Positions 4,746-55,072 of a DNA stretch of 64,000 nt are shown here, piece by piece. The first letter of the stretch is position 1. Each line of letters opens with the position of its first letter. Both the position numbers and the translations under genes were made by a program. Under the pieces are notes generated by a model, which searched no databases, had not been told where the DNA came from, and saw only the letters and a list, made by a program, of their open reading frames with translations. Origin of the DNA: Gluconobacter cerevisiae (GTDB lineage Bacteria; Pseudomonadota; Alphaproteobacteria; Acetobacterales; Acetobacteraceae); assembly GCF_015244675.1 (NCBI RefSeq), contig NZ_JABCQO010000001.1, positions 310,001 through 374,000 of the forward strand, written 5' to 3'.

Positions 4746-6907
4746 CCGAATTTTCTTCTAACGCCACCCCGGAAGCTGCTCCGTTCCTGCCGCCTGAAGC
4801 ACCGCTGGCTATGAAGCCGCAAAACCTTCATCAGCAGCCGGACCGTCATGGGCGGCCCTTCGATCCCCTACCGACGACGCCGTCTTTCCTGTGGGCGCGC
4901 CGTCTGTTCGTCTTTGGTGGCGCGATGCTGCTGACGGGCTATGGAATTTACAGGATCAATCAGGTTTTCAACTCGCTGGGCGTCTCGGCGCTTGGTGTTA
5001 TTATCCTGATCCTGTTCGCCATTCTCGCCTTCTGGATCGCGCTGTCCTTCATGTCCTGCCTCGGCGGTTTCTTCTCGCTGATGCTGCGGGGCGGTCTGGG
5101 GCTCGGCATCCATCGGACCGGGCCGCTGCCGGAACTGAAAAACCGCACCGCCGTCCTGATGCCGACCTACAACGAGGACCCGATGCGCGTTCTCGCGGGT
5201 CTGCGCGCCATTCATGACAGCATTCTGGCGACGGGACAGATCGACGCCTTCGATTTCTTCATCCTGTCCGACACGACCAATCCGGACGTCTGGGTGCAGG
5301 AAGAGCGCGCCTTTCTGGAGTTCCGCAAAGCCACGAATGGCGAAAAGCGGGTCTTCTATCGCCGCCGTCACAAGAATACGGACCGCAAGGCCGGCAATCT
5401 GGGTGACTGGGTGACGCGGTTCGGTTCGTCCTACCAGCAGATGCTCACGCTCGATGCTGACAGCGTGATGGATGGTAGCCTGATCGTCCGGATCACGGCA
5501 GCCATGGAACAACATAATGGCGTGGGGCTGATCCAAACACTCCCGGTCATTGTGGGTGGTCGCACGCTTTTTGCCCGGATGCAGCAGTTTGCCGGCCGCG
5601 TTTATGGACCGCTGATCGCGCATGGCATTGCCTGGTGGCATGGCTCGGAAGGCAATTACTGGGGCCATAACGCCATCATCCGCACACAGGCCTTCGCTGA
5701 ACAGGCCGGACTACCGCATCTGAAGGGCCGGCCGCCCTTCGGAGGGCACATTCTGAGCCATGACTTCGTGGAAGCTGCCCTCATGCGCCGTGGCGGCTGG
5801 GCCATCCACATGGTGCCGGGACTGTTCGGCTCCTATGAAGAAAGCCCGCCATCGCTGACAGACGTCGCCATCCGTGACCGCCGCTGGTGTCAGGGAAACC
5901 TGCAACACAGCAAGATCCTCGGCACGAAAGGCATGCACTGGGTCAGCCGTGTCCATATGCTGACGGGCATCGGGTCCTACATCATGTCCCCGCTCTGGCT
6001 GCTGTTCCTGCTGTTCGGCATCCTGATTTCGCTCCAGTCGCATTTCTATCACCCCGAATATTTCGGCTCGACCCCGACGCTCTATCCGCATTGGCCGCGT
6101 GTTGATCCGGTGCAGGCCAAGCTTGTCTTCATTGGGACGATGGGCATTCTGCTCGCACCGAAGGCTCTGGCGTTCATTGCCATGCTGTTCGATCGCGCGG
6201 CCCTGAAGGGTTCTGGCGGCGTTTTCCGCCTTGCGGTCTCTATCGTGCTCGAAACCCTGATCGGCGGCCTGATCGCGCCGATTGCCATGCTGATCCAGAC
6301 GTCCGGCGTCATTTCGATCCTGCTGGGCCGGGATTCGGGATGGAATGCGCAGAACCGTGACGATGGCAGGGTTTCGCTGAAGGAAGTGGCCCACGGCTAC
6401 TGGATTTACACCGTGTTCGGCCTGCTTCTGGCCATTGCGGCATGGTCAGTCTCACAGGCGCTGTTCCTGTGGATGACGCCGGTGCTGCTGGGGCTGGTTC
6501 TGGCCATTCCTCTGGCCGCACTGACGGCGAGCCGGGACGTTGGTCTGGGCCTGCGCCGCGCAGGGCTTCTGCTGATCGAGGAGGAAACCGCCCCTCCGCC
6601 GATCCTTCAGCTTGCTGCCGCAAACGATACCGCACGTGAACGCGCCGCCCATGCTCCCGATGCTCCGCCGGAAGAAGCCTTCGCCGCACTGCGCGAGAAC
6701 GCTACCCTCCTCGGCGCCCATGAAGGCGCGCTTCCCCCGGCCCGCAGCCCGGGCAGCCCGATCGACGCGCATCTTCTGGTGGGCCTGCTCAAGCTGCGGG
6801 AGGCCCCGTCCCTTCAGGTCGCGCTGGAACGTCTCTCCCGTCAGGAGAAGGCGGCGGTTCTGGGAAGTGCCGAAGGTCTGGCACTCATGGAAAAACTCGC
6901 AGCCTGA
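4721..6907 (+). CDS. opgH: Glucan biosynthesis glucosyltransferase H
   Basis: A 728-residue inner-membrane GT2 glycosyltransferase that polymerises glucose from UDP-glucose into the linear backbone of osmoregulated periplasmic glucans. Visible features are two N-terminal membrane segments (about 60-115), the catalytic run VLMPTYNED, FILSDTT, LTLDADS (about 243-249), ILSHDFVEA and RDRRWCQGN, then several C-terminal membrane helices. The C-terminus after about residue 615 is Ala/Pro-rich and probably cytoplasmic. The first ATG overlaps opgG; a later ATG at 4811 would remove a poorly ordered leader and cannot be excluded. A strong hairpin terminator follows. Confidence 0.93.
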   Translation: MDVSLDAVTEFSSNATPEAAPFLPPEAPLAMKPQNLHQQPDRHGRPFDPLPTTPSFLWARRLFVFGGAMLLTGYGIYRINQVFNSLGVSALGVIILILFAILAFWIALSFMSCLGGFFSLMLRGGLGLGIHRTGPLPELKNRTAVLMPTYNEDPMRVLAGLRAIHDSILATGQIDAFDFFILSDTTNPDVWVQEERAFLEFRKATNGEKRVFYRRRHKNTDRKAGNLGDWVTRFGSSYQQMLTLDADSVMDGSLIVRITAAMEQHNGVGLIQTLPVIVGGRTLFARMQQFAGRVYGPLIAHGIAWWHGSEGNYWGHNAIIRTQAFAEQAGLPHLKGRPPFGGHILSHDFVEAALMRRGGWAIHMVPGLFGSYEESPPSLTDVAIRDRRWCQGNLQHSKILGTKGMHWVSRVHMLTGIGSYIMSPLWLLFLLFGILISLQSHFYHPEYFGSTPTLYPHWPRVDPVQAKLVFIGTMGILLAPKALAFIAMLFDRAALKGSGGVFRLAVSIVLETLIGGLIAPIAMLIQTSGVISILLGRDSGWNAQNRDDGRVSLKEVAHGYWIYTVFGLLLAIAAWSVSQALFLWMTPVLLGLVLAIPLAALTASRDVGLGLRRAGLLLIEEETAPPPILQLAAANDTARERAAHAPDAPPEEAFAALRENATLLGAHEGALPPARSPGSPIDAHLLVGLLKLREAPSLQVALERLSRQEKAAVLGSAEGLALMEKLAA

Positions 6908-6930
6908 AGAGCCACAGGACATCACGACAC

Positions 6931-6967
6931 AAAAAACGCCTCGGCCATTACAGCCGGGGCGTTTTTT
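6931..6967. terminator. Bidirectional rho-independent terminator
   Basis: A 15-base-pair stem (one G-U pair) with loop CATTACA, flanked by six A on the left and six T on the right. It lies between convergent opgH and the minus-strand DUF2501-like gene and can end transcription from both sides. Confidence 0.9.
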
Positions 6968-6992
6968 ATTGCAGACCCGTAGGCCGTATCAG

Positions 6993-7484
6993 TTACTTGA
7001 AAGACTGGGCTTTCTTAACAAGGTCGTTGCACGTCGTAACGCGCTTGTCCTTGGAGAGCGTGCCGATATCAAAGACGTTACCGTCCGTCATCTGAAGCAG
7101 ACCCTTGCCGCCCAGCGAGTAGAACTCGTCGCTGTGCACATCCGGACGCTTGGCGATCTTGCGAGCCGCGACGATCGGCGATGTTCCGAGCACCAGCTTG
7201 TGTTGCGTACAGTAGTAGGTCAGACCGGCGATATTGCCTGCCTGTGCGCCCTCAATGGAGGGAAGACCATCGGCACCCAACACACCCGGCGACGCAGCGC
7301 TCAGGACATTTTTACCGCCTGCAACGGCCTGAACATGAGCGCCGGGCAGTCGCGCCTGCGTTCCGGCGGGAATGGTCGTCACAGGGCTGCTCTGCGGGAT
7401 CGGCGGAACGGTCTGGGCCACGGCAGCGCCGGAAATGCTCAGGCCAGCGGCGGCAAGAACAGCAAAATACTTGCTTGAAATCAT
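6993..7484 (-). CDS. Small secreted protein, DUF2501 (YjjA)-like
   Basis: A 163-residue protein with a clear Sec signal peptide (cleavage likely after AAVAQ, about residue 24), so periplasmic or secreted. The second half has the pattern NIAGLTYYCTQHKLV followed by a GLLQMTDGN and CNDLVKKA ending. This resembles E. coli YjjA and the DUF2501 family by my recollection of that family. Two cysteines bracket the domain. Function is unknown. It is a single gene facing opgH, sharing a terminator. A second member of the same kind is at 35022. Confidence 0.75.
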   Translation of the reverse strand: MISSKYFAVLAAAGLSISGAAVAQTVPPIPQSSPVTTIPAGTQARLPGAHVQAVAGGKNVLSAASPGVLGADGLPSIEGAQAGNIAGLTYYCTQHKLVLGTSPIVAARKIAKRPDVHSDEFYSLGGKGLLQMTDGNVFDIGTLSKDKRVTTCNDLVKKAQSFK

Positions 7485-7681
7485 GATACTCTTCTTTCCA
7501 CATCACAGGATGTCCTGCCTGCATCCCAAAAGGAGAAACAGAATTCATCCGGTCTGGAACATCCTAAAGAATGCTCCGTTGCCCTGAATAACACTTGAGA
7601 CCAGTCGTAGTTTCTTGAGAGGGCTTCTTTTCCAGTCAAAGGCCGATTGAATGCCGGGCGTTTCTGCGTCACAGTTTGGTC

Positions 7682-42923: not shown

Positions 42924-43207
42924 AGCAATTCCGACCATATACGTTGCTCGATCCTGATGACCGTCCCGTCGCCGCGACCGCGATCGAGGCAGACGCGCCG
43001 ATAATCGTCACATGGAACCTAGACGACTTTCCTGTTGCCGAATTAAGAGAGCATAGCTTGGCGCAGCAGTCACCGGATGTCTTCCTGGTCGACCTCTGCA
43101 CGCGGGCCCCGGATAGGCATTGCCTTCTGAACGAAATAGGCAATCTGCTTTCACCGAAGTCTCAGGGCATTGAGCCGCAGTGCGTTTGTCACGACGGCCA
43201 GGGATGA
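42924..43207 (+). pseudogene. PIN-domain toxin, 3' part (beyond IS66)
   Basis: Continues exactly from VTGYE once the IS and one target copy are removed: QQFRPYTLLDPDDRPVAATA, then PIIVTWNLDDFPVAEL with the later PIN acidic residues, then SPDVFLVDLC. After about residue 140 of the rebuilt protein the sequence no longer looks like the family and runs antisense into the 3' end of the copper ATPase gene. So the true C-terminus is probably lost at a recombination point near 43110-43150. Confidence 0.78.
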
Positions 43208-45529
43208 CAGGGCCATCGCGCCTCCCGCGAACATGGGCGACAGCGTAAGGCCAAAGACGGGATACAGTACGCCTGCGGCAAGTGGGATGCCGATCCCATT
43301 GAACAGGAAAGAAAATGCCAGATTCTGCCGGATGTTGCGCATCGTCGCCTGTGCCAGGCGGCGGGCGCGTACCAGTCCGGCGAGGCTGCCTTGTGCCAGT
43401 GTCATCCCGGCGCTTTCGATGGCGACATCGGTGCCTGTGCCCATGGCGATTCCGATATCGGCGGTGGCCAGGGCCGGCGCGTCGTTGACGCCGTCGCCCG
43501 CCATGGCGACACGGGCTCCCTTCTGTTGCATGTCACGAATGATCGCGGCCTTATCCTCGGGTTTGAGGTCGGCATGTACCTCGTCGATTCCCGCCTGCCG
43601 GGCCACGACTTCCGCAGTCCGGGCATTGTCACCCGTCAGCATCACGATCCGCATGCCGGCTGCGTGCAGTGCCGCGATGGTCTCCTTCGCGTCGGTCTTC
43701 AGCGGATCGGCCACGACCAGCAACCCAGCGGCCTGTCCGTCGATGCCGACGAACATGACGCCCGCGCCCTCCGCCCGGTGGGTGTCCGCGACAGGGATCA
43801 ATGCCGACGCATCGATGCCCTGCTGCCGCATCTGGGCCTGGTTTCCGACGACGACGGCATGCCCGTCCACGGTGCCGGTCACGCCCAGGCCGGTCTGAGA
43901 CGCGAAATCCCCGACCGGCGCGGCCTGAAGGCCCTGCTCCGTCATCGCGGCGACCAGCGCCTGGGCCAGCGGATGCTCGGATTGTGTTTCCAGTGATGCC
44001 GCCAGTCGCAGGACGATGCTGGAATCCCATGCACCTGATGTTTCGGTCGCGATCAGCCGGGGCTTGCCTTCCGTTACGGTGCCGGTCTTGTCGATCACCA
44101 GCGTATCGACCGTATCCAGTGCCTGCAGGGCCTCGGCGTTGCGAACCAGCACGCCAGCTCGCGCCCCGCGTCCCATGCCGACCATGATCGACATCGGAGT
44201 GGCCAGGCCCAGCGCGCACGGACAGGCGATCACCAGGACCGCAATGGCGTTCAGCAGTGCGTGTCCGAAGCGCGGTTGCGGACCGACCAGAAGCCAGACA
44301 ACGAAGGTCAGCAGGGACACAAGCACGACCAGCGGCACGAACCAGCCGGAGACCCGGTCCGCCACCGCCTGGATCGGTGCGCGCGTACGCTGGGCGGCCG
44401 CTACCATGCTGACGATCCGGGCCAGCATTGTGTCCGAGCCGACGGCCTCGGCCGTCATCAGCAGGCTGCCGGTGCCGTTGATGGTTCCGCCCGTCACCTT
44501 GTCACCCGGGCCCTTGGCGACAGGTGCTGGCTCTCCTGTCAGCATGGCTTCGTCCACGCTGGAGCGCCCGTCCATGACGGTGCCGTCCACCGGGATGCTT
44601 TCCCCCGGCCGGATGCGGAGCCGATTGCCGGGCACGATCTGGGCCAGCGGTACGTCGTCCTCGCGATCCTGCGCGCCGACCCGGTGTGCGATTTTCGGTG
44701 CGAGATCCAGCAGGGCGCGAATGGCGCGACTGGTACGGGCGCGGGCGCGCAGTTCCAGGACCTGCCCGGCCAACACCAGGGCCACGATAACACCTGCGGC
44801 TTCGTAATAGACCGGGACCGACCCGTCATGCATGCGGAAGGCAGCAGGGAACAGGCCAGGAGCTACTGTCGCGGCGATGCTGTAGAGAAAGCCCGCGCCG
44901 ACGCCCAGCATGATCAACGTAAACATGTTCAGATGCCGGGTGCGGAGAGACATCCAGCCGCGTTCGAGGAACGGCCAGCCGGCCCACAGCACGATTGGTG
45001 CCGTAAGCGCCAACTGAATCCAGTTCGTCAGGCCGCCATCGAAAAATGCCAGCCCTCCCATATCCGCCGCCATGGCGATGACGACGAGCGGGACCGCCAA
45101 TATGCTCGCTCCCCACAGGCGCCGGCTGAAATCCACGAGTTCCGGGTTGGGCATGTCGGCGTCGGATGGCTCCTCCGGTTCCAGCGCCATGCCGCAGATG
45201 GGGCAGGAGCCGGGGTGATCCTGTCGGATCTGGGGGTGCATCGGGCAGGTCCAGATCATCCCGGCCCGCCTGGGCTGAGGCTTGATGGGCGTCGTGTCCG
45301 CCTTGTGCAGGTAATGACAGGGGGCGGCCTCGAACTTTGTCTGGCAGTGCGCGCTGCAAAAATACCAGGTCCGGCCATCATGGTCGGCATGATGCGTCGC
45401 CGTCGCGGGATCGACCGTCATGCCACACACAGGATCCTTGACCAGGTGCGCGTCAACTCCGGTCGCTGCCGGGGTGGGACCCTCTCCATGGAGATGGGAC
45501 GCGCAAGCTGCTGTATTGTCGTTCGTCAT
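43151..45529 (-). CDS. Copper-type heavy-metal P1B ATPase
   Basis: Inner-membrane pump that exports Cu(I)-type metals using ATP, 792 residues; often called CopA or ActP. Instead of the usual HMA domains the N-terminus has a YHS domain ([12 protein letters not shown], about 30-72) and a heavy-metal-binding segment WTCPMHPQ...[10 protein letters not shown] (about 93-115). Then eight membrane helices with [10 protein letters not shown] (about 436), the phosphorylated Asp in DKTGTVTEG (about 478), TGDN and [13 protein letters not shown] start at 45529 because AAGGGGG lies just upstream. Divergent from the CsoR-type gene with an operator between. Confidence 0.94.
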
Positions 45530-45594
45530 GAAGCCCCCTTGCTTGTGGCCGCCAGCCGCGGCGTCGAAGTATGCCATAATCGCTTGCACTTCAA

Positions 45595-45617
45595 GGTATG
45601 CCCCTGTAGGGTATAGT
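45595..45617. promoter_or_regulatory. Putative CsoR-type operator and divergent promoter
   Basis: TATGCCCCTGTAGGGTATA is a near-palindrome with a C-run/G-run core as bound by CsoR/RcnR/FrmR proteins. TATAGT at 45612-45617 is a good -10 for the repressor gene, only 3 bases before its ATG, and no ribosome site is seen, so a leaderless mRNA is possible. On the other strand TTGAAG and TACTTC with 17 bases between may drive the ATPase gene. Confidence 0.6.
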
Positions 45618-45620
45618 GCA

Positions 45621-45893
45621 ATGAGGCAGTCACGGGTAAAGATTTCGCAGGGCCTGAAACGGGTCGAAGGTCAGGTGCGTGGCATCCAGAAAATAGTGGA
45701 CGAAGACCGCTATTGCGTGGATGTTCTGCTTCAGCTTCGGGCCGCCAAGGCGGCGTTGCATCGGCTCGAGGGGCTTGTTCTGCGCGAACATATCGCGGGC
45801 TGCGTCGTGGAGGCGATCGAATCCGGCGATCCGGTGGAGCGTCAGGAAAAAATCGGGGAACTGATCGAAACGGTCAGCAAGATGACGGGGTAG
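45621..45893 (+). CDS. csoR: CsoR/RcnR-family metal-sensing repressor
   Basis: A 90-residue all-helical repressor (DUF156) that leaves DNA on binding metal. The ligand set Cys32 (DRYCVDVL), His57 and Cys61 (REHIAGCV) is the C-H-C pattern of copper-sensing CsoR; RcnR and FrmR differ in these positions. N-terminus [20 protein letters not shown] is the DNA-facing helix. The ATG at 45621 is taken as start; the frame upstream runs antisense to the ATPase. It lies divergently next to the copper ATPase and probably controls the whole copper block. Confidence 0.92.
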
Positions 45894-45895
45894 AC

Positions 45896-46303
45896 GTGCA
45901 AGAGATCGGCGCGATACGGTTGGGACGGTTGCTGGCCTGCCTGCTTCTGCAGGTGGGGCTGATGCTGGCATCCGTCATGCCGGGTCATGCCGCCACGTTG
46001 CCCTCTACAGTTGCTGTGGTTACCCAGCCGATGGCCGACATGCCAGGGATGCAGATGCCATCCCGTGCGGATACGACGACCGCACATTGCAATCATGAAC
46101 CGTGCCACGACCATCATCCATGTCATCATTGCGGCGATTGCTGCGCCCAGGGTGCCTGCGTCGCCAATTGGCTGATGCCGCCCTCCGTGACCAGGGCGTT
46201 TGATTACTCAGGTGTTACGGCACCTTTCGGCCTGTCTCGCTCGGATCGCATCGTCGGTCATGGGTTCGCGCCGGCCCTGCCACCGCCCAGAGAGATGGCC
46301 TGA
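45896..46303 (+). CDS. Exported Cys/His/Met-rich protein, probable copper-binding
   Basis: A 135-residue protein starting at GTG three bases after the csoR stop. It has a signal peptide (about 9-32, cleavage after HAA), a Met patch MADMPGMQMP (about 46-55) and a dense metal-ligand cluster of six Cys and six His around residues 64-88 (HCNHEPCHDHHPCHHCG then DCCAQGAC). This layout suggests periplasmic copper capture or sensing, similar to CopL/DUF2946-type proteins in other copper clusters, but the family was not confirmed. In operon with csoR. Confidence 0.68.
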   Translation: MQEIGAIRLGRLLACLLLQVGLMLASVMPGHAATLPSTVAVVTQPMADMPGMQMPSRADTTTAHCNHEPCHDHHPCHHCGDCCAQGACVANWLMPPSVTRAFDYSGVTAPFGLSRSDRIVGHGFAPALPPPREMA

Positions 46304-46379
46304 TTCTGTTCTGACAGTCTCAGGGCTGGTCATGGACCTATGACCGGCTCCGCCTTCTCTCTTTTGCGGACTATTATTC

Positions 46380-48212
46380 ATGTCAATACGATCCCTTGCG
46401 GGACGGAGCGCGATCACGCGCCGTCGTTTCGTCGTCGGGACGGGCCTGTGGGGAGCGGCACTGGCCCTCCCGCAGGGCAGCGCGAGCGCCTACGCTTCGG
46501 TCTATACACCGGCGTCGGGGCGGCCCGACCCGCTGCCTGGCACCCGTTTCGACCTTACGATCGGTTCTGTACCGATCAATATCACCGGTGCGCGCATGCA
46601 CGCGGTGGGTGTGAACGGCTCCACGCCCGCGCCGATCCTGCGCTGGCGTCAGGGCGACACAGTCGAACTGAATGTCACCAACCGGCTGGATGAGCCCAGT
46701 TCGATCCACTGGCACGGAATCCGGGTGCCGGCCGACATGGACGGCGTGCCCGGTCTGAGCTTTGGCGGGATCGCGCCGGGTGACACGTTCACCTATCGCT
46801 TCCCGCTGCATCAGAGCGGCACCTACTGGTATCACAGCCATTCCGGCTTCCAGGAGCAGACGGGCCTGTATGGGGCTCTGATCATCGACCCGAGAGACGG
46901 TTACGCGCAGCATTTCGACCGCGATTATGTGATGGTCCTGTCCGACTGGACCGACGTCGATCCTGAGGACATCGTCTCCAACCTCAAATTCCAGAGCGAT
47001 TACTACAATTTCCGCCAGCGTACGGTGGACACGTTCTTCCGTGACGCACATCGGCAGGGGCTGGGTGCGACGATCCGAGATCGCCTGCAATGGGGTGCCA
47101 TGAACATGGCGCCGACCGACATTCTGGATGTGTCGGGCATCATCTACACCTACCTGATCAACGGCCAGTCGCCTGCTGCAAACTGGACGGGCCTGTTCCG
47201 ACCGGGCGAGCGCATACGCCTGCGCTTCATCAATGCATCGGCGATGACGCTGTTCGACGTGCGGGTTCCCGGCCTGACGATGACCGTTGTTCAGGCCGAC
47301 GGTAATGACGTGGAGCCCATCCCGGTCGATGAATTCCGCATCGGGCCAGCGGAAACCTACGATGTAATTGTCAGCCCCACCGCCGATGGACCGTACACAG
47401 TCTTTGCCCAGGCCGAGGATCGTACCGGATACGCGCGCGGCACGCTCGCCACCCGTTCGGGCCTTGCCGGGCCGGTTCCCCCCATGGACCCGCGCCCTCT
47501 GCGCACCATGACCGACATGGGTATGGGGAATATGGACATGAAGGGCGGCATGGCGGGCATGGAGATGGGGAGTTCGCCGGGGAAGCCCGGTGATGCCCCT
47601 GCCGGCGGCGGCATGGACATGGATCACATGGACATGAAGGAGGCTAACAGACCCGGAGCCGCTGCGATGGATATGCCGGGCATGGCGGCTGCGTCGCGGC
47701 ATAAAACAGAGTTGAAACCCGGCGTCGCGGTGCAGAGTGTCGCCATGATGCCGATCAACCGGCTGGCGGAGCCGGGCGACGGGCTGGAGAATAATGGTCG
47801 CCGCGTTCTGACCTATGCCGATCTGCGGGCCACGATCCCGGGCGCGGACCCACGCCCGCCGTCGCGCGAGATCACCCTGCACCTGACCGGCAGCATGGAA
47901 CGCTTCATCTGGGGATTCGACGGCAAGAAGTTCTCGGAAGCGGAACCGATTCGTCTGACTTTGGGCGAGCGGGTGCGCTTCGTCCTGATCAACGACACGA
48001 TGATGGAGCATCCAATCCATCTGCATGGATTGTGGAGCGAACTGGAAAATGGGCAGGGTGACTGCCGACCCTACAAGCACACGATTACCGTCAAGCCGGG
48101 TGAGCGGCTGAGTTACTTGGTCACGGCGGACGAACCCGGGCTGTGGGCATATCACTGCCACCTGCTCTACCACATGGAGGTGGGCATGTTCCGCACGGTG
48201 GTGGTGTCGTGA
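46380..48212 (+). CDS. copA: Copper resistance multicopper oxidase CopA
   Basis: Periplasmic cuprous oxidase, 610 residues, converting Cu(I) to less toxic Cu(II) with O2. A Tat signal (SAITRRRFVVGTGLWGAALA) exports it folded. The copper-site motifs are all present: HWHG (110-113), YWYHSHSG (149-156), HPIHLHG (544-550) and YHCHLLYHMEVGM (591-603). Between about 380 and 435 there is a Met-rich insert (MGMGNMDMKGGMAGMEMGS) that can bind extra copper. GTGA overlap with copB. Named after Pseudomonas CopA/E. coli PcoA, not the ATPase. Confidence 0.96.
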   Translation: MSIRSLAGRSAITRRRFVVGTGLWGAALALPQGSASAYASVYTPASGRPDPLPGTRFDLTIGSVPINITGARMHAVGVNGSTPAPILRWRQGDTVELNVTNRLDEPSSIHWHGIRVPADMDGVPGLSFGGIAPGDTFTYRFPLHQSGTYWYHSHSGFQEQTGLYGALIIDPRDGYAQHFDRDYVMVLSDWTDVDPEDIVSNLKFQSDYYNFRQRTVDTFFRDAHRQGLGATIRDRLQWGAMNMAPTDILDVSGIIYTYLINGQSPAANWTGLFRPGERIRLRFINASAMTLFDVRVPGLTMTVVQADGNDVEPIPVDEFRIGPAETYDVIVSPTADGPYTVFAQAEDRTGYARGTLATRSGLAGPVPPMDPRPLRTMTDMGMGNMDMKGGMAGMEMGSSPGKPGDAPAGGGMDMDHMDMKEANRPGAAAMDMPGMAAASRHKTELKPGVAVQSVAMMPINRLAEPGDGLENNGRRVLTYADLRATIPGADPRPPSREITLHLTGSMERFIWGFDGKKFSEAEPIRLTLGERVRFVLINDTMMEHPIHLHGLWSELENGQGDCRPYKHTITVKPGERLSYLVTADEPGLWAYHCHLLYHMEVGMFRTVVVS

Positions 48213-49015
48213 TCCGGGGTCTGATAGGTGGCACGGTCCTTGCCGCTGGACTGGCTACCGCGGTACCTGGCACGGGACGCGCCCAGTCAGTCCCGGCACG
48301 CCAGAGCGAAGGAACCCAGGAAGCGCAGACCGCCTCGGCTCCCGCGCCCGTGGTCTATGTCAACGGCATCCAGCCGGTCATGGACCATAACATCTATATG
48401 CATGCGCTGCTCGACCAGTTCGAGGCGCGCTTTGGTGCCGATGGCGGGCAGTTCCGTTACGATGGGCAGGCTTGGTTCGGCACTGACTACGACAAGCTCT
48501 GGCTGAAATCCGAAGGCACGGTCGGCACAAACGGCAAGTTCGGTGATGGAGATCATGAGGCCCTCTATGATCGTGCCATCTCCCGGTATTTCGATGTCCA
48601 GACTGGCGTGCGTCTCGATATTGACAACGGCCCCACACGGGCCTGGGGCGCGATCGGGGTCGAGGGACTGGCTCTATATTTCTTCAATGTGGAGGCCACG
48701 GCCTATTTCAGCGACCGGGGTGCGGCGGGGCGTCTGCAGGGCTCATACGATATCCTGCTGACTAATCGCCTGATTCTCCAACCCCAGGTCGAGATGAACT
48801 TCTATTCCGCGTCCGATCGTGCGCGCGGCGTCGGAACCGGGCTGTCCGATATCGATACGGGATTGCGGCTTCGCTACGAATGGCATCGGAAATTCGCGCC
48901 TTATATCGGCGTGAGTTACTCCGGCACGTTCGGTCAGGCCGCCGACATGGCGCGTTCAAGGAATGAGCGTGTCCAAGACCTGAATTTCACCTTCGGGATC
49001 AGGACGTGGTTCTGA
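48209..49015 (+). CDS. copB: Copper resistance outer-membrane protein CopB
   Basis: A 268-residue outer-membrane beta-barrel of the CopB/PcoB family, thought to bind or limit copper at the outer membrane. Start at GTG 48209, overlapping the copA stop, gives a signal peptide (cleavage near GRAQS). The family blocks MDHNIYMHALLDQFEAR, FGTDYDKLWLKSEGTV and DIDTGLRLRYEWHRKFAPYIG follow, and it ends in Phe as barrel proteins do. It lacks the long Met/His-rich N-terminal extension seen in Pseudomonas CopB. Confidence 0.93.
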   Translation: MIRGLIGGTVLAAGLATAVPGTGRAQSVPARQSEGTQEAQTASAPAPVVYVNGIQPVMDHNIYMHALLDQFEARFGADGGQFRYDGQAWFGTDYDKLWLKSEGTVGTNGKFGDGDHEALYDRAISRYFDVQTGVRLDIDNGPTRAWGAIGVEGLALYFFNVEATAYFSDRGAAGRLQGSYDILLTNRLILQPQVEMNFYSASDRARGVGTGLSDIDTGLRLRYEWHRKFAPYIGVSYSGTFGQAADMARSRNERVQDLNFTFGIRTWF

Positions 49016-49095
49016 CCGCTCCTGCCCGATGTGAAGTCGTTGCGGGGCGCTCCGTGCGGCCCCGTTTCAGATAACAAAAGATAAGGAACTTACAA

Positions 49096-49488
49096 ATGCT
49101 GACTATCAATTTCAGGTTCTCGGCCGCTCTGGCCGCACTTCTGGCCACGGTCTCGGTTGCGCATGCCCAGACCCCCGCTCCGGCACCGGCCCAGCCGCAG
49201 GGTCAGGATATGTCCGGGATGCAGGGCATGTCCGGCATGTCGGGGATGGACCACGACAAGATGAAAATGGACGGCATGTCCGGTTCCGGCATGGAGGGCA
49301 TGGAGAAGGGCATGAAAATGAAGGGAAAGATGGGAGACTGTATGAAGATGAAGGGCATGAATATGTCGAACGGCCACGCCATGGCGCCGTCAGATCACAA
49401 GATGAAAATGGGCTGCGGTGACAAGGAAAGCGGCATGAAGATGCCGATGGGGCCGCAGGGCATGCCTGACGCGGTTCATCAGCGCTGA
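49096..49488 (+). CDS. Exported methionine-rich protein, probable copper buffer
   Basis: A 130-residue protein: signal peptide (cleavage after AHA, about 23), a Pro/Ala linker, then about 90 residues built from MSGM, MDHDKMKM and MKMKG units with 24 Met by my count, plus four His and two Cys. Low complexity and probably unfolded until metal is bound. Met-rich stretches bind Cu(I), so a periplasmic copper sponge is likely from context; no folded family is recognised. Set between copB and the cytochrome c gene, with AAGGA upstream. Confidence 0.72.
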   Translation: MLTINFRFSAALAALLATVSVAHAQTPAPAPAQPQGQDMSGMQGMSGMSGMDHDKMKMDGMSGSGMEGMEKGMKMKGKMGDCMKMKGMNMSNGHAMAPSDHKMKMGCGDKESGMKMPMGPQGMPDAVHQR

Positions 49489-49554
49489 TCGGGTCCTGAC
49501 CGGAGCGGGGCGGCGCCATCAGCGTCGCGCCTGGAAAGGCCAAGGGAGGCACGT

Positions 49555-50118
49555 ATGACAAGACTGATCTGGGGGTTCGCCGGTATCCTGCTGTTTGGGA
49601 TCGGCGCAGGAGCGACCGTCGTTTTCGGTGGCCTGTATGATGTGGGCGCCACCTCGCCGCACTGGCGGCTGACCTATCGTGTTCTGGAAACGGCACGCCT
49701 CCATTCAATCCGGCATCACGCCGAGGGCATTACCGCACCTGTCGATCTTGAAACGCAGGCACGGCTCGTCGGCGGCGCATCGCATTTTTCGACGCATTGC
49801 GCCTCCTGTCATTCCGCGCCGGGCGTCGAGGCCGAGGATATGGCGGTGGGGATGTATCCGAAGCCGCCGGTTCTGAAGGATGTGGCGCAACGCTATACAC
49901 CGGGCGAACTGTTCTGGATCCTCAAGCATGGCATCAAGATGTCGGGCATGCCGTCCTGGGCGGATCATGGTGATGATGATCTCTGGAACATCGTTGCGTT
50001 TCTCGGGAGCCTTCCGGGAATGAACAGTTCTGACTACCAGGCGCTGGTCGCCCAGGCAGGAGCAGCTGGCGGACATCATACGCATCACGACATGGATATG
50101 CCGATGCCCCGACCGTAG
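49555..50118 (+). CDS. Membrane-anchored monohaem cytochrome c
   Basis: A 187-residue c-type cytochrome held by an uncleaved N-terminal helix (about 5-26). Haem attaches at CASCH (82-86) and the likely axial Met is in IKMSGMPSW (about 128-135), the class I layout. The tail is His/Met-rich (GGHHTHHDMDMPMPRP), which suggests copper binding. It may pass electrons between the copper oxidase block and the respiratory chain or the redox module just downstream; this is inferred from position only. AGGGAGG precedes the ATG. Confidence 0.88.
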   Translation: MTRLIWGFAGILLFGIGAGATVVFGGLYDVGATSPHWRLTYRVLETARLHSIRHHAEGITAPVDLETQARLVGGASHFSTHCASCHSAPGVEAEDMAVGMYPKPPVLKDVAQRYTPGELFWILKHGIKMSGMPSWADHGDDDLWNIVAFLGSLPGMNSSDYQALVAQAGAAGGHHTHHDMDMPMPRP

Positions 50119-50133
50119 ATGCCGCTGCGATAA

Positions 50134-50147
50134 TTGATCGAGATCAA
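50134..50147. promoter_or_regulatory. FNR/FixK-type binding box
   Basis: TTGATCGAGATCAA is a perfect match to TTGAT-N4-ATCAA. A -10-like TATAGT follows at 50169-50174, placing the box centre about 41 bases before the expected transcription start, the activating class II position. Confidence 0.72.
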
Positions 50148-50152
50148 GGAAA

Positions 50153-50175
50153 ATATGCCATACCCCCGTATAGTA
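50153..50175. promoter_or_regulatory. CsoR-type operator overlapping the -10
   Basis: TATGCCATACCCCCGTATAG contains the palindrome-flanked C-run ATACCCCCGTAT, as bound by CsoR/FrmR-type repressors. It shares TATGCC, the C-run, GTA and TATAGT with the site before csoR at 45595. A bound repressor would cover the -10 of the redox-module promoter. Confidence 0.62.
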
Positions 50176-50251
50176 ATTTCTTATTCCTGACGACGTCCGG
50201 AAAATGGGTCGGTATGCGCTTTGCCGAGGATGATGACGTGTTGGAGAAACC

Positions 50252-52387
50252 ATGAGGCGCATCTTTTCGAGCGTGAGTGTCGTGATCATGACGCTGCTCG
50301 TCAGCATGTCAGAGGGACTCGCTCAGGCTCCGGGTGAGTCTCCCACTGTTCCGGCCATGTCCAGCGGCACTATGGCGGGGCCTACGGCAGGCAGTCCGCC
50401 ACCTTCTCTGGCGCTGCGGCGGGATCAGCCGGAGGACGATGGGCCTATGGCAGCGCCCCGGGATGCCGACCGGGGTGCCGAATCGTCCGGCGGAATGAAG
50501 ACGCCCCCCGCTCGACCCGACTCAGGCATGTCCGACATGGGCAGCATGATGTCGATGGGTGGTGACGAGCATGCGAGCCATCACCCTGGCATGGGCGCGG
50601 CGGTCCCCCCCGGTGCGCCATCATCCAGGCCGGCTGAGCAGGGCGATATGATGAGCCGCATGCTGCCTCAGGCTGGGCAGGCATTGAGTGCGGTTCCCGG
50701 AGCAGACAAGGCCGACGCGGGTTGTTGCGGAGCGCGCGGTCACACGCCGCTTTATACTTTCATGATGACGCATCCGAAGCTGACCGACGTCGAACGTCAG
50801 ATGCTGGCCGATATTGCGGCACAGAGGCTTCAAGACGGTCTTCGCGAAGTCGGCGCTGCATCGGTCGATGCCGCTCAGTCCCTGTCGTGGGAGACGATGC
50901 GTCGGTCCAGCCAACATCTCCATGACGGTGTTGCGTTGCTCGATAGCGGAATGGCCGCGCGCGCGGCCGCGACCGGCCTCGTTAATCCTCAAATGGTGGC
51001 TTTCAACTGGTTCACGGCACAGATGGGTCTGCCGACAATCGCGGCGAGCCAGCAAAACGGCCTATTTTTCGGACTGACGCCGACTCACCTGGTGTTCATG
51101 ACGATCCTGATCCTGGTATCGATCGCTCTGCTGATCTTGCAGGTCCTGCGGTTGCATCGTGTGCAGGAGATTCTCACGACCACCACGGCATTCGCACCGA
51201 AACCAACGGTTCCGCCCATGCCACCATCGTCGACCGGCGGCGGTCCAACACCTCCTGTTCCCCCGCCTCCCCCTGTACCGGGACCAGGCGGTGGAACGGC
51301 CACTCCGATCGTCGACGTACCGCGACACGGCCTCTGGCGTGGCAGCCTGAAAGTGGCCCGGATCATTCGGGAGACGCCGGCGATCGTGACGTTCTATCTG
51401 GTTCCGGCCGATGGGGGGCGGATTCCCTTTGACTTCAAACCCGGCCAGTTCGTGCAACTCACCATCGAGCCGACGTCTGGCAAGCCCGCGAGCCGGTCCT
51501 ATACGATCGCATCGTCGCCGGGGCAGGTCGAACATCTCGAACTAACGATCAAACGCGAGGAACACGGGCTGGTCTCGCGCTACCTGCATGACACGGTCAA
51601 GGAGGGTGATCTTTTAAAGATCGCGGGTCCATCGGGTATGTTTACCTTTACGGGTGAAGAGGCAGACTCGATCGTCCTGCTGTCCGGCGGCGTAGGCATC
51701 ACACCGATGATGGCGGTCCTGAGATACCTGACCGATATCGTCTGGCCGGGCGATATCTACTTCGTCTATTCCGCTCATGCCAGCATCGACTATGTGTTTC
51801 GCCAGGAAATCGAGTGGCTGGAACGTCGCAATGACAAACTGCACGTTATTGCCACCATGCGGCGGTCGCCGGGGACAGAGTGGTCGGGGCCGGAAGGGCG
51901 CATCACGAAGGAACTGCTTCAGCAATCGGTGCCAGATCTCACAAACCGACGTATCCATGTCTGCGGCCCACCCGGGATGATGGCAAGCATGAGAGCGTTA
52001 TTGACGGATCTCGGTGTGCCGGAAGCCAATGTTCATAGCGAGGCATTCGGACCAGCCGCGATGAAGGCCGAACCTGCGGTCGGGCCTGTGGCGGCCCCCT
52101 CATCTCCGGCCGTCACGCCTGCCGCAACGACCATTACGTTTTCCACTTCAGGGAAATCGGCTCCGTTGCAACTGGATGAAACGGTTCTCGACGCGGCTGA
52201 TGCGGCAGGCGTCAATATTCCATCCTCCTGTCGATCCGGTATCTGCGGCGTATGCACGACACATCTGCTGCAAGGCCAGGTGACGATGGCGGTCGAGGAT
52301 GGGCTCGATCCGGCTGACAAGGCCAAGGGTTTCATCCTGGCCTGTCAGGCGAAGACCACGGGTGGTCCGCTGGTCGTGGAGGCGTGA
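50252..52387 (+). CDS. Membrane-anchored fusion: Met-rich periplasmic domain, FAD/NAD(P)H reductase and 2Fe-2S ferredoxin
   Basis: A 711-residue multidomain protein. Order: signal peptide (1-25); periplasmic part with Met/Pro/His-rich region (about 35-140) and a helical unit (about 165-265); one membrane helix (about 278-299) followed by basic residues, so the rest is cytoplasmic; Pro-rich linker (315-350); FNR-type flavin domain with RSYTIASSP (415-423), NAD(P)H motifs GGVGITPM (479-486) and CGPPGMM (571-577); plant-type 2Fe-2S domain with Cys660, 665, 668 and 698. It can take electrons from NAD(P)H to a membrane partner, likely the next gene's product, coupled by TGATG. I know no named family with this whole layout. 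Confidence 0.85.
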   Translation: MRRIFSSVSVVIMTLLVSMSEGLAQAPGESPTVPAMSSGTMAGPTAGSPPPSLALRRDQPEDDGPMAAPRDADRGAESSGGMKTPPARPDSGMSDMGSMMSMGGDEHASHHPGMGAAVPPGAPSSRPAEQGDMMSRMLPQAGQALSAVPGADKADAGCCGARGHTPLYTFMMTHPKLTDVERQMLADIAAQRLQDGLREVGAASVDAAQSLSWETMRRSSQHLHDGVALLDSGMAARAAATGLVNPQMVAFNWFTAQMGLPTIAASQQNGLFFGLTPTHLVFMTILILVSIALLILQVLRLHRVQEILTTTTAFAPKPTVPPMPPSSTGGGPTPPVPPPPPVPGPGGGTATPIVDVPRHGLWRGSLKVARIIRETPAIVTFYLVPADGGRIPFDFKPGQFVQLTIEPTSGKPASRSYTIASSPGQVEHLELTIKREEHGLVSRYLHDTVKEGDLLKIAGPSGMFTFTGEEADSIVLLSGGVGITPMMAVLRYLTDIVWPGDIYFVYSAHASIDYVFRQEIEWLERRNDKLHVIATMRRSPGTEWSGPEGRITKELLQQSVPDLTNRRIHVCGPPGMMASMRALLTDLGVPEANVHSEAFGPAAMKAEPAVGPVAAPSSPAVTPAATTITFSTSGKSAPLQLDETVLDAADAAGVNIPSSCRSGICGVCTTHLLQGQVTMAVEDGLDPADKAKGFILACQAKTTGGPLVVEA

Positions 52388-53115
52388 TGCAGGAGCGCAG
52401 CGAAATCATTGTCGGCGCCCTGGTCGTCCTGCTGGTGCTGTTCCCGCTGGGCTTTCTGGTGCATGTCGCGCCGCGCTTTCCCGGAAGTCTGGCTGGCAGC
52501 CTGATTGGCATTTGCGCCGCTATCCTGATGCTGGTGCCGCTGATTTACGTAGCGGGCAAACGCATTCCCGTCGTGCATCGTTATTTCGCGCCGCGTGTCG
52601 AGAGCCGAACCCTTCTGTCGGTGCATATCTATGCTGGCGTCCTTGCACCCATTTTGGGCCTGATCCACGCCGCCCATAAATTCGATAGCCCGATGGGGAT
52701 CTCGCTGACCGGCATCATGCTCGTCCTCGCCATTAGTGGCTATGTCGGGCGCTACATGTTGATCCAGATCGGGCGCGGATTGCGCGGTCGCACCCAGGAA
52801 CTGGCCCAACTGCGCACGTCTCTGGCAGATGCCGGGGTGGCGCATCTGATGCCCGAGACGCCGGATGTGCCCCGTAATATCGTCCAGCGCCTTTTTCTGA
52901 CCTCGGCCTATCCCGGTACGCGGGGTACATCGGATCGCGAGGCCACGATTGCCTCCGCGCTGGCCGATGTTGAGTATGCGGTCAGGTCGGAGAGGGTGGC
53001 GAACGCACTGTTCGGGCGTTGGCGCAAGATTCACGTCATCCTTGTGGTCATCCTCTATTTTCTGCTGATTCTGCATATCTGGTCAGGCCTGTATTACGGG
53101 CTGAGGTGGCTATGA
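52387..53115 (+). CDS. Membrane protein with paired histidines, possible b-type cytochrome
   Basis: A 242-residue inner-membrane protein with about five helices (10-27, 34-56, 78-96, 105-125, 215-235). Histidines lie inside or at the ends of helices: H80 and H94/H97 in one, H216 and H230 in the last (KIHVILVVILYFLLILHIWSG region). This 14-residue spacing on two helices is what bis-His haem b proteins such as ferric reductases and cytochrome b561 show. Family not certain. It is wedged between the NAD(P)H reductase fusion (TGATG overlap) and the multihaem cytochrome (ATGA overlap), so it is the natural transmembrane electron carrier. Confidence 0.75.
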   Translation: MQERSEIIVGALVVLLVLFPLGFLVHVAPRFPGSLAGSLIGICAAILMLVPLIYVAGKRIPVVHRYFAPRVESRTLLSVHIYAGVLAPILGLIHAAHKFDSPMGISLTGIMLVLAISGYVGRYMLIQIGRGLRGRTQELAQLRTSLADAGVAHLMPETPDVPRNIVQRLFLTSAYPGTRGTSDREATIASALADVEYAVRSERVANALFGRWRKIHVILVVILYFLLILHIWSGLYYGLRWL

Positions 53116-53894
53116 AGCCCGCTGTCATACTCTATACGGTCTTTGCGCTTGCGGCTCTGATCGTCGGACTGGTTGTGCCCCTTGCCGTGCATCGTTCCGG
53201 CAGTAACGCAGTTCCAGGTTGGGAAGGGTTGGTGAATCCCGGACCGATCTCGAAAGCGCACCAGTTTATCGCGGGCCAGTGCGAGACATGTCACAGGCCT
53301 TTCACAGGTGTGGTGACCAATAACTGCGTGACATGTCATTCTCTGGCGTCGTTCGCCGACAAGCAATCCACCCGGTTTCATGTCGCGGCGACGCAATGTA
53401 CGTCCTGTCATGTGGAGCACGGTGAACGGCCACATATGACCGTGATGGATCATAGTGCATTGACGAGGGCGGATTTCTGGTCAGACACCGTTGCGCAACT
53501 TCGCTCAGCCGGGCTGGTTGGAGCGTCGCCGATTCCGGGAAGCGCTGCGGCTATTCCGACTGATCATCGACTTGACCGTGATGCCGTTCTCCATCTGAAT
53601 TGCGCAAGCTGTCACTCCAACGTGGATCCTCATCGCGCCCGCTTTGGTCCTGATTGCGCGAGTTGTCACTCCACCAATACATGGCTGATCGCCGCGTTCG
53701 AACATCCCGCCGATCAGATATCGACGGATTGCAACGCCTGTCACAAGGCGCCGCCCAGCCATTACATGATGCATTTCAAAATGATTTCGCAGCACGTCGC
53801 GCATCAGGATGCCCCGGTGGAGCATTGCTATGCCTGCCATACCACCGATGCATGGAACAATATTCGAGGGTATGGATGGTATAAGCACCATTAA
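53112..53894 (+). CDS. Seven-haem cytochrome c, cytochrome c3/c7-like
   Basis: A 260-residue periplasmic multihaem cytochrome held by an N-terminal helix (about 5-26). Seven CxxCH sites: 57-61, 72-76, 96-100, 164-168, 182-186, 207-211 and 239-243. Extra histidines are plentiful and could be the second ligands of bis-His haems, giving low potentials. Two clusters (three and four haems) are separated by a haem-free stretch of about 60 residues. Last gene of the coupled redox trio; it would receive electrons in the periplasm. Class III type is inferred from haem spacing. Confidence 0.9.
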   Translation: MKPAVILYTVFALAALIVGLVVPLAVHRSGSNAVPGWEGLVNPGPISKAHQFIAGQCETCHRPFTGVVTNNCVTCHSLASFADKQSTRFHVAATQCTSCHVEHGERPHMTVMDHSALTRADFWSDTVAQLRSAGLVGASPIPGSAAAIPTDHRLDRDAVLHLNCASCHSNVDPHRARFGPDCASCHSTNTWLIAAFEHPADQISTDCNACHKAPPSHYMMHFKMISQHVAHQDAPVEHCYACHTTDAWNNIRGYGWYKHH

Positions 53895-54147
53895 ATCTTA
53901 CGAAATTTGCGTCAGAATATCGCCATTTAACGCGTGTGTGATGATGAAATCACTGGAAGCGGCGGCATTGCCCAAAAAATATATTGTAAATCAGAAAATA
54001 TATCGAACGTTACGCATGATTATTTCGCATGTCGTAAACTTTTGAAGCAAGCAGTTGGCTTACTCTGGCCCGAATAGGGTTATTTCCAGGTTAGGGCTAG
54101 ATAGAAAAATTGACATTTCTTCAAAAAAAATCTATAATTATTAGGAA
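53895..54147. other. AT-rich spacer before the IS5-type element
   Basis: No gene seen. The sequence is clearly more AT-rich than either side (runs such as AAAAAATATATTGTAAAT), marking a join between the copper/redox block and the next segment. Confidence 0.5.
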
Positions 54148-54164
54148 ACTCCTACGGCGTGTCG

Positions 54165-54551
54165 TCAGTTAAGCAGGATGATGATTGAGGCGAACTGAAC
54201 CGCCGCGAGGAAGGTGGATTTCAGTTTGTCGTAGCGGGTTGCAATAGCGCGGAACTGCTTCAGTTTATTGAAGAACCGTTCGATAAGATTACGTTCCCTG
54301 TAAAGAGCGAAGTCGGTTTTCCGCGGCATCGCTCTATTGCGTTTTGACGGTATGACCGGGGTAATCCCGCGCTCTGTCAATCGGTCGATCAACCTGTCTG
54401 CGTCATACGCCCTATCAGCAAGGAAGGCATCCGGATCGATGTTTTCCAGCATCGGTTCCGTCCGGTTAATATCCGCATCCTTTCCCGGTGTGATATCGAT
54501 CTCCACCGGATTGCCCAGAGCATCGCAGATAGCATGGATCTTTGTGGTCAA
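54165..54551 (-). CDS. IS5-type transposase, C-terminal frame
   Basis: Carries the rest of the DDE core: TTKIHAICDALGNPVEIDIT, second Asp in LADRAYDADRLIDRL and the Glu in RERNLIERFFNKLKQFRAIATRYDK (in parts). It overlaps the first frame by 4 bases in the plain reading and is probably expressed as the C-terminal part of a frameshift fusion rather than by itself. Both catalytic halves look undamaged. Confidence 0.85.
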   Translation of the reverse strand: MTTKIHAICDALGNPVEIDITPGKDADINRTEPMLENIDPDAFLADRAYDADRLIDRLTERGITPVIPSKRNRAMPRKTDFALYRERNLIERFFNKLKQFRAIATRYDKLKSTFLAAVQFASIIILLN

Positions 54552-54919
54552 TCCGCCCCGGGATCGTCCGATGGCCTGATCCGCGCCCCCTTTTTGAGGG
54601 CTCCGGCACTGTGCTGATGCGCCCGGACAATGGTGCTGTCGATCATCATGTATTCATTGTCGTGATCTGCTGCCAAATGGCGAAAGATCCGCTCAATAAC
54701 ACCAGTTTCACACCAGCGACGCAGACGTCTGTGCACGTTTTTCCAGTCCCCGAAACGGCCCGGAAGATCACGCCAGGGAATGCCTGCACGGTAGCGATAC
54801 AGCACAGCTTCTACGAAAAGGCGGTTGTCTGCAGCAGTGCCTCCGACATGACCCTCACGACCCGGAAGAAAGTCTTTTATACGCTCCCACTGGTCGTCAC
54901 GTAAGCCATAGCGCCGCAT
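54548..54919 (-). CDS. IS5-type transposase, N-terminal frame
   Basis: The first 123 codons (MRRYGLRDDQWERIKDFLPG start, DUF4096/IS5 N-terminal domain) with WRDLPGRFGDWKNVHRRLRRW and the first catalytic Asp in MIDSTIVRAHQH. It ends shortly after ALKKG. The second frame takes over there in the -1 direction, at CTCAAAAAGGGGG (54586-54599), as in IS elements that make the full transposase by ribosomal frameshifting. Start at 54919 follows AACAACAG-type weak leader; upstream codons to 54976 look non-coding. Confidence 0.85.
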   Translation of the reverse strand: MRRYGLRDDQWERIKDFLPGREGHVGGTAADNRLFVEAVLYRYRAGIPWRDLPGRFGDWKNVHRRLRRWCETGVIERIFRHLAADHDNEYMMIDSTIVRAHQHSAGALKKGARIRPSDDPGAD

Positions 54920-55072
54920 CTGTTGTTCTCCTCCAAAGCCGGAAAAACAGTCAGCACAGAGCAACAGAACGTACAACCCTCACTTCAAGCTCTCAGGTCT
55001 TAACTGACGACACGCCGTAGGAGTGTTCAGGCTTTACTATATGCTTACCATTGATGATGGTGGAGGAACGTT

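Follow-up and report, generated by a model that had tools for sequence, protein, structure and literature searches.

What is the function of three overlapping genes that lie downstream of a set of copper resistance genes in the acetic acid bacterium Gluconobacter cerevisiae? The genes, here called A, B and C (together the trio), are found in a window of 64,000 nucleotides (positions 310,001 to 374,000 of the forward strand of contig NZ_JABCQO010000001.1, assembly GCF_015244675.1), and their products resemble a dehydrogenase with a periplasmic part, a five-helix membrane protein and a seven-haem cytochrome. A first-pass annotation, made from the letters alone, had described them as a redox module possibly linked to copper chemistry. 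Their anatomy makes an electron relay very likely, and a role as a cupric reductase is plausible. We put at about an even chance the fuller statement, that A, B and C form one transmembrane relay which most likely reduces periplasmic Cu(II) under copper stress.

The open reading frames, the Pfam scan and the sequence agree with the first-pass description of the three genes in place, strand, domains, overlaps and the seven CxxCH motifs of C (Table 1). In A, the domain families PF00970, PF00175 and PF00111 all score above gathering, the only iron–sulphur matches in Pfam are to 2Fe-2S families, and a proline-rich linker is listed between the transmembrane helix and the flavin adenine dinucleotide (FAD) domain. 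The predicted periplasmic part is rich in histidine and methionine, and carries an EHASHH motif as well as a methionine-rich (Met-rich) stretch. A TGATG overlap joins the stop of A to the start of B, for which the ATG at 52387 is the best candidate with a GTG one codon upstream, and an ATGA overlap joins the stop of B to the start of C. B itself matched no family at threshold in Pfam and NCBIfam scans, and no iron–sulphur family in Pfam. Judging from its alignment and a structure model, B is probably a dihaem b-type membrane protein. The haem-placing histidines expected of it at first reading are supported by their conservation and by the model: two HX13H pairs, at residues 80/94 and 216/230 on helices 3 and 5, are invariant across the 33 rows of the B alignment (A4), as are two further histidines, H26 and H97, and the model has helices at 73–95 and 183–241. 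The SGxxG motif of helix 4 reads SGYVG, and a tryptophan stands four residues before the histidine on helix 5, not on helix 3. Seven of the 33 members, the window protein not among them, match the ferric reductase family PF01794 at E <=0.1 (best 0.0016), and the modelled fold appears to resemble those of b561, NOX, STEAP and Dcytb proteins in a VIA-align comparison; sequence searches of solved structures with B and C gave no close relative. C has a hydrophobic stretch at its N-terminus, and the host is probably able to mature c-type cytochromes, as CcmF is encoded on its contig 2; ccm genes also lie near the trio on a Methylophaga plasmid.

Relatives of B were collected by scanning GTDB contigs with alignment A1, which led to 186 confirmed from one peptide pattern, and the best 80 were analysed. 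A lies 5' and C 3' of B on the same strand in all 80 loci, with seven CxxCH motifs in C and two or more HX13H in the open frame of B throughout; A runs off the contig in three loci (L038, L067, L070) and is broken in a fourth (L045). An [EDQ]HxxHH motif is present in A in 75 of the 80, the misses being those three contig-end cuts and two uncut genes (L056, L086); alignment A5 omits L086 and L097 from its 30 listed loci. A separate draw, spread evenly over the Pseudomonadota and comprising 398 genomes with that of the window among them, yielded six other strong matches to B (E <1e-40), all six arranged A-B-C, with EHxxHH in five of the six A proteins and one C with six CxxCH in the frame read. 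Among 289 genomes of the class two more strong matches were found, one arranged A-B-C (L136) and the other with A and B followed by a C that is truncated where the contig stops (L187), and the nearest relatives, L132 to L135, are also A-B-C. The proposal that the three genes form one system has thus held in both collections. By tblastn, B was found in 52 plasmid records, including those of Sphingobium, Acetobacter, Alteromonas, Methylophaga, Variovorax, Legionella, Pontibacter and Spirosoma. In the 15 of these records that were read, A is split or broken in L011, L019, L020 and L025, and the C frame of L019 has only three CxxCH. L011 is the Acetobacter aceti plasmid pAAJCM20276_2, in which about 1.2 kilobases (kb) of extra sequence splits A at about 6419–7586. 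The hosts that were named belong to the Pseudomonadota, Planctomycetota, Nitrospirota and Hydrogenedentota, and via plasmids to the Bacteroidota, several of them being metagenome bins. The trio is strictly conserved in the loci examined, and it is mobile.

How would such a system work? We infer the cofactors, the formation of a complex and the direction of electron flow from the topology and from what is known of the chemistry of these domain families. The cytoplasmic part of A would take electrons from nicotinamide adenine dinucleotide (phosphate), NAD(P)H, onto its FAD and pass them on to the C-terminal 2Fe-2S cluster of the same protein. The inner haem of B (H80/H216) would receive them next, followed by the outer haem (H94/H230) and finally, on the periplasmic side, by the seven haems of C, so that the relay would amount to a NOX or ferric reductase whose parts lie on separate chains and which is extended by a multihaem tail. 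Under copper stress, Cu(II) would be reduced to Cu(I) in the periplasm, near the His/Met-rich part of A and Met-rich partner proteins, and the resulting Cu(I) would then be bound, stored or exported. Copper as the acceptor is suggested by the gene neighbourhood, the conserved EHxxHH and Met-rich parts, and a promoter site, all discussed below. A flow in the opposite direction, in which oxidation of periplasmic Cu(I) feeds the reduction of NAD(P)+, is extremely improbable; relays of such design are reversible in principle, and H2 could be the donor in Alteromonas, but inward flow from copper would be uphill because Cu(I)/Cu(II) potentials lie far above that of NAD(P)H.

The proposed order NAD(P)H, FAD, haem, haem is that of NOX, FRE and STEAP, and a dihaem helix bundle, as predicted for B, is known from these and from Dcytb; unlike in NOX and FRE, the dehydrogenase (on A) and the membrane part are separate chains, and an extra 2Fe-2S cluster and a seven-haem tail are predicted. 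CcoG, likewise a membrane redox protein tied to copper, is of the 4Fe-4S polyferredoxin type, whereas A matches 2Fe-2S families only and B none, and the CcoG family is absent from the best 25 of A's 32 matches and from those of B. According to the available part of PMC7558416, CcoG is a bacterial cupric reductase with two Fe-S clusters that is encoded with the cbb3 oxidase genes, and eukaryotic iron reductases are also able to reduce Cu(II). The closest published design is that of the inner membrane proteins of the PCC3, PCC4 and 'other multihaem cytochrome c' clusters, for which the accessible portion of PMC5566968 gives two HX13H motifs, notes a likeness to ferric reductases and leaves the function open; for PCC3 and PCC4 the definition is five helices, two WX3HX13H and SGxxG. 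The trio shares with these clusters the five helices, the two HX13H on helices 3 and 5, the SGxxG of helix 4, the adjoining multihaem cytochrome and, in most cases, another redox protein. PCC3 and PCC4 include a porin, their cytochromes are larger or more numerous, and extracellular electron transfer with quinone has been proposed for them; the trio differs in having an NAD(P)H dehydrogenase whose periplasmic part is rich in histidine and methionine, in its seven haems and in its place on copper islands. That portion of PMC5566968 assigns such clusters no role involving copper. Nine neighbouring products at 43–54 kb of the window, when scanned, included no second multihaem cytochrome and no barrel protein other than CopB. 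A weaker tier of B matches (E 1e-8 to 1e-15, 15 genomes) contains loci in which a B-like gene adjoins a cytochrome with 8 to 24 CxxCH (L152–L154, L188–L197), and in four of them also an A-like dehydrogenase without the EHxxHH part (L189, L194, L196, L197). It is these loci that look like the PCC3, PCC4 and 'other multihaem cytochrome' kinds with their inner membrane proteins. Thioredoxin-reductase-like FAD proteins were seen by eye nearby in place of A in L152 and L154, and in L154 ccm-like genes adjoin the distant B relative. On the B tree the trio family branches apart from four weaker-tier sequences (100/100, midpoint root). The first-pass statement that no named system has this set holds among the matches listed, but the part of PMC5566968 at hand already records a less strictly defined kind whose membrane protein is built in the same way. 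The trio is a variant of this published kind, an HX13H membrane protein with a multihaem cytochrome, that lacks an assigned function; among the matches listed from open PubMed Central papers, none places the trio in a copper setting.

The neighbourhood of the trio was compared at the level of 36 clusters of B at 80% identity, which include L025, whose B is broken, and some loci on short contigs. Core copper genes were defined as CopA, other multicopper oxidase, CopB, DUF411 (which we take to be CopG) and the four-helix copper protein, and were counted with reference proteins from the window and from annotated plasmid loci, that is, from trio neighbourhoods themselves. They lie near 28 of the 36 clusters and in one of 34 control regions (Fisher p 2.6e-11), the controls being hand-picked regions from 17 genomes of the same class as the window and the trio loci spanning several phyla; the one positive control held a CopA match. 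The count was 24 of 36 when the class 'other multicopper oxidase' was omitted, 19 of 22 among clusters without any reference locus, and 32 of 36 with a wider set of metal-stress markers. CopA alone was found near 17 of 36 clusters against 1/34 controls; for comparison, 46 of 100 related genomes have a TIGR01480 protein, usually one or two each. DUF1622 (17/36 against 0/34), Spy/CpxP-like sensors (14/36 against 0/34) and MerR regulators (14/36 against 1/34) are enriched as well; enrichment is not clear for RND permeases (8/36 against 3/34) and adhP (6/36 against 2/34). Met-rich open frames within 3.5 kb before A were present in 22 of 35 representative loci, an uncontrolled count, and several of them look secreted and show no obvious homology to one another. 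On the B tree the copper label needs 8 changes compared with 9.9 for shuffles (38 of 500 shuffles were as low), so that copper neighbours occur in scattered places and do not mark a single clade.

A copper neighbourhood would also be compatible with a relay that supplies reductant for periplasmic damage control in copper stress, acting on oxidised methionines or thiols or on peroxide and not on copper, as MsrPQ does. The topology of the trio is like that of Fre plus MsrQ, a system in which a cytoplasmic flavin reductase, a haem b protein and a periplasmic acceptor follow one another in the same way, and the Met-rich periplasmic part of A would itself become oxidised. Periplasmic Msr repair in copper stress is moreover the topic of PMC9302797, as far as the available part goes. 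We nevertheless regard this role as unlikely: the nine window neighbours scanned contained no methionine sulfoxide reductase, peroxidase or thioredoxin-like family, and the conserved EHxxHH motif would be superfluous. The trio also differs from MsrPQ in ending in a multihaem c, with no product like MsrP, the periplasmic molybdenum reductase encoded beside the haem protein, among those nine neighbours.

The promoter region adds a second line of evidence for copper. Just before A, ATACCCCTGTAGGGTA, one base from the site in the divergent ATPase/CsoR promoter, is found in five of 12 Acetobacteraceae loci (L026, L027, L029, L034, L084), which are near-copies of one another; in these five 20-kb loci the two sites are the only forward-strand matches with <=3 mismatches. 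The site before A has three mismatches in L032 and four in five other loci, and no such site was found before A in L011; a four-mismatch match is expected 0.005 times in 134 bases. CsoR may bind at this 16-base site, for which a literature search found no published operator of the same sequence. With the patterns used, no CueR-type dyads were detected upstream of A in 36 representative loci, and a TACCCC-N5-GGGTA dyad was discarded because its scan was no better than chance. The trio resembles CopAB/PcoAB in lying on the same island and, in five relatives, in having an operator-like site in common; it is not known to be part of the cop or pco systems. The islands could instead be multi-metal islands, with the relay reducing another metal ion such as Fe(III), Ag(I), Au, Hg(II) or chromate, and they do also hold MerR-type heavy-metal regulators, RND pumps and P1B ATPases; cytochrome c3 has been linked to Pt and Pd reduction (PMC6357080, available in part). 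Such a substrate is decidedly unlikely, as the partners with the strongest enrichment carry copper-protein annotations (CopA, CopB, four-helix copper protein, with DUF411 taken as CopG) and the Acetobacteraceae site before A matches that of the copper ATPase promoter.

Several observations weigh against copper reduction by the trio. Eight of the 36 clusters (L016, L017, L018, L020, L021, L088, L097, L105), some of them short contigs, have no core copper gene in the stretch read, nor have three of the six from the separate draw; the copper link suggested at first reading therefore stands as an enrichment joined by a promoter site, and not as a universal rule. CopA, which often lies nearby, is a Cu(I) oxidase and works in the opposite direction. 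EHxxHH is absent from L056, L086 and L183, the site before A is degenerate in the window, and B falls below the PF01794 gathering score. L136, without a core copper gene, has a hydrogenase-small-subunit-like frame, and in Alteromonas L017 the trio is followed by a cluster for a NiFe hydrogenase; the plasmid that carries L017 has copABCDG elsewhere, according to the available part of PMC4781885. These two loci favour a general electron outlet or inlet through which the NAD(P)H pool would communicate with partners in the periplasm, such as hydrogenase, and which would serve redox balance on stress islands, as do adhP, aldehyde dehydrogenase, GAPDH and phosphorylase genes on other islands and the distant kin without a Met-rich part in other settings. 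We consider it quite unlikely, given core copper genes near 28 clusters and a hydrogenase small subunit near 1/36. In addition, according to the accessible part of PMC3102683, hydrogenase activity in E. coli did not depend on orf1 and cyt of the Alteromonas 'deep ecotype', which by order are probably B and C. Partnership with hydrogenase was rejected as the main role on the count of that one cluster plus L136.

In the window, the place of the trio after copA-copB and a Met-rich protein, as first noted, is borne out by TIGR01480, PF05275 and the sequence. The block 43110–54154 is about 96% identical in loci of Brytella, Acidomonas, Asaia, Acetobacter musti and Endobacter, and 99.8% identical in Acetobacter oeni, and B is 100% identical (rounded) in seven loci (L026, L027, L028, L029, L034, L084, L085). 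This near-identity across several genera points to recent spread between them. The transposase-like element that follows the trio in the window is absent from that place in L026 and other relatives. In L112 (G003:C23, reverse strand near 5558, same genus), a cop cluster, the promoter of A and the first codons of A were seen by eye to be followed by transposon-like sequence. This locus was rejected as a cop cluster that never held the trio; loss by insertion is likelier, because the promoter and first codons of A run directly into the transposon-like sequence. Flanks of other trio islands (L012, L016, L023, L024, L186) often carry carbon and nucleotide metabolism genes, namely adhP, aldehyde dehydrogenase, thymidine phosphorylase, PRPP synthetase, GAPDH and glycogen phosphorylase.

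Table 1 Features of the trio and its neighbourhood, in window coordinates.
Feature	Position	Strand	Basis and remarks
P1B-type copper-exporting ATPase (YHS, HMBD, E1-E2 domains)	43151..45589	-	Pfam, NCBIfam; divergent
Putative CsoR-type operator ATGCCCCTGTAGGGTA	45598..45613	+	Sequence; divergent ATPase/CsoR promoter
CsoR/RicR-like metal-sensing repressor	45621..45893	+	PF02583 4.7e-25; RicR model 70 bits, under its cut-off
Small His/Cys-rich protein between CsoR and CopA	45929..46303	+	Open reading frame; extent from annotated L011 homologue
CopA multicopper oxidase	46380..48212	+	TIGR01480 854.8 bits, over cut-off
CopB outer-membrane copper resistance protein	48209..49015	+	PF05275 4.5e-81; start from L011 homologue
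Met-rich secreted-looking protein	49096..49488	+	Sequence; no Pfam family
Cytochrome c (CBB3 subunit III type)	49555..50118	+	PF13442 4.4e-13
Degenerate CsoR-type site before A, ATACCCCCGTATAGTA	50160..50175	+	4 mismatches to 45598-45613
Gene A	50252..52387	+	711 amino acids; sequence and Pfam
A, signal peptide	N-terminus	+	Judged by eye
A, EHASHH motif	50567-50584	+	Sequence
A, single transmembrane helix	about 51080-51160	+	Judged by eye
A, FAD domain	51431-51646	+	Pfam
A, NAD(P) domain	51677-51994	+	Pfam
A, plant-type C-terminal 2Fe-2S domain	52151-52354	+	Pfam
Gene B	52387..53115	+	242 amino acids; five helices; sequence, alignment, structure model
Gene C	53112..53894	+	Start ATG 53112; 260 amino acids; seven CxxCH; c7/class III-like
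Transposase-like frames just 3' of the trio	54165-54976	-	Element 54155-55008

Taken as a whole, the trio may, tentatively and with somewhat less confidence than we attach to the fuller statement given at the start, be a dedicated and mobile NAD(P)H-driven cupric reductase of split NOX-like design, controlled by CsoR in acetic acid bacteria and carried on copper islands of several phyla, where it would set the periplasmic Cu(I)/Cu(II) balance against the multicopper oxidase. If this is true, a plasmid-spread cassette connecting copper in the periplasm with the NAD(P)H pool would represent a second, quite different kind, with a bearing on how bacteria make or control periplasmic Cu(I). The trio would also offer a simple and tractable relative for the orphan HX13H membrane proteins of the PCC-type clusters.

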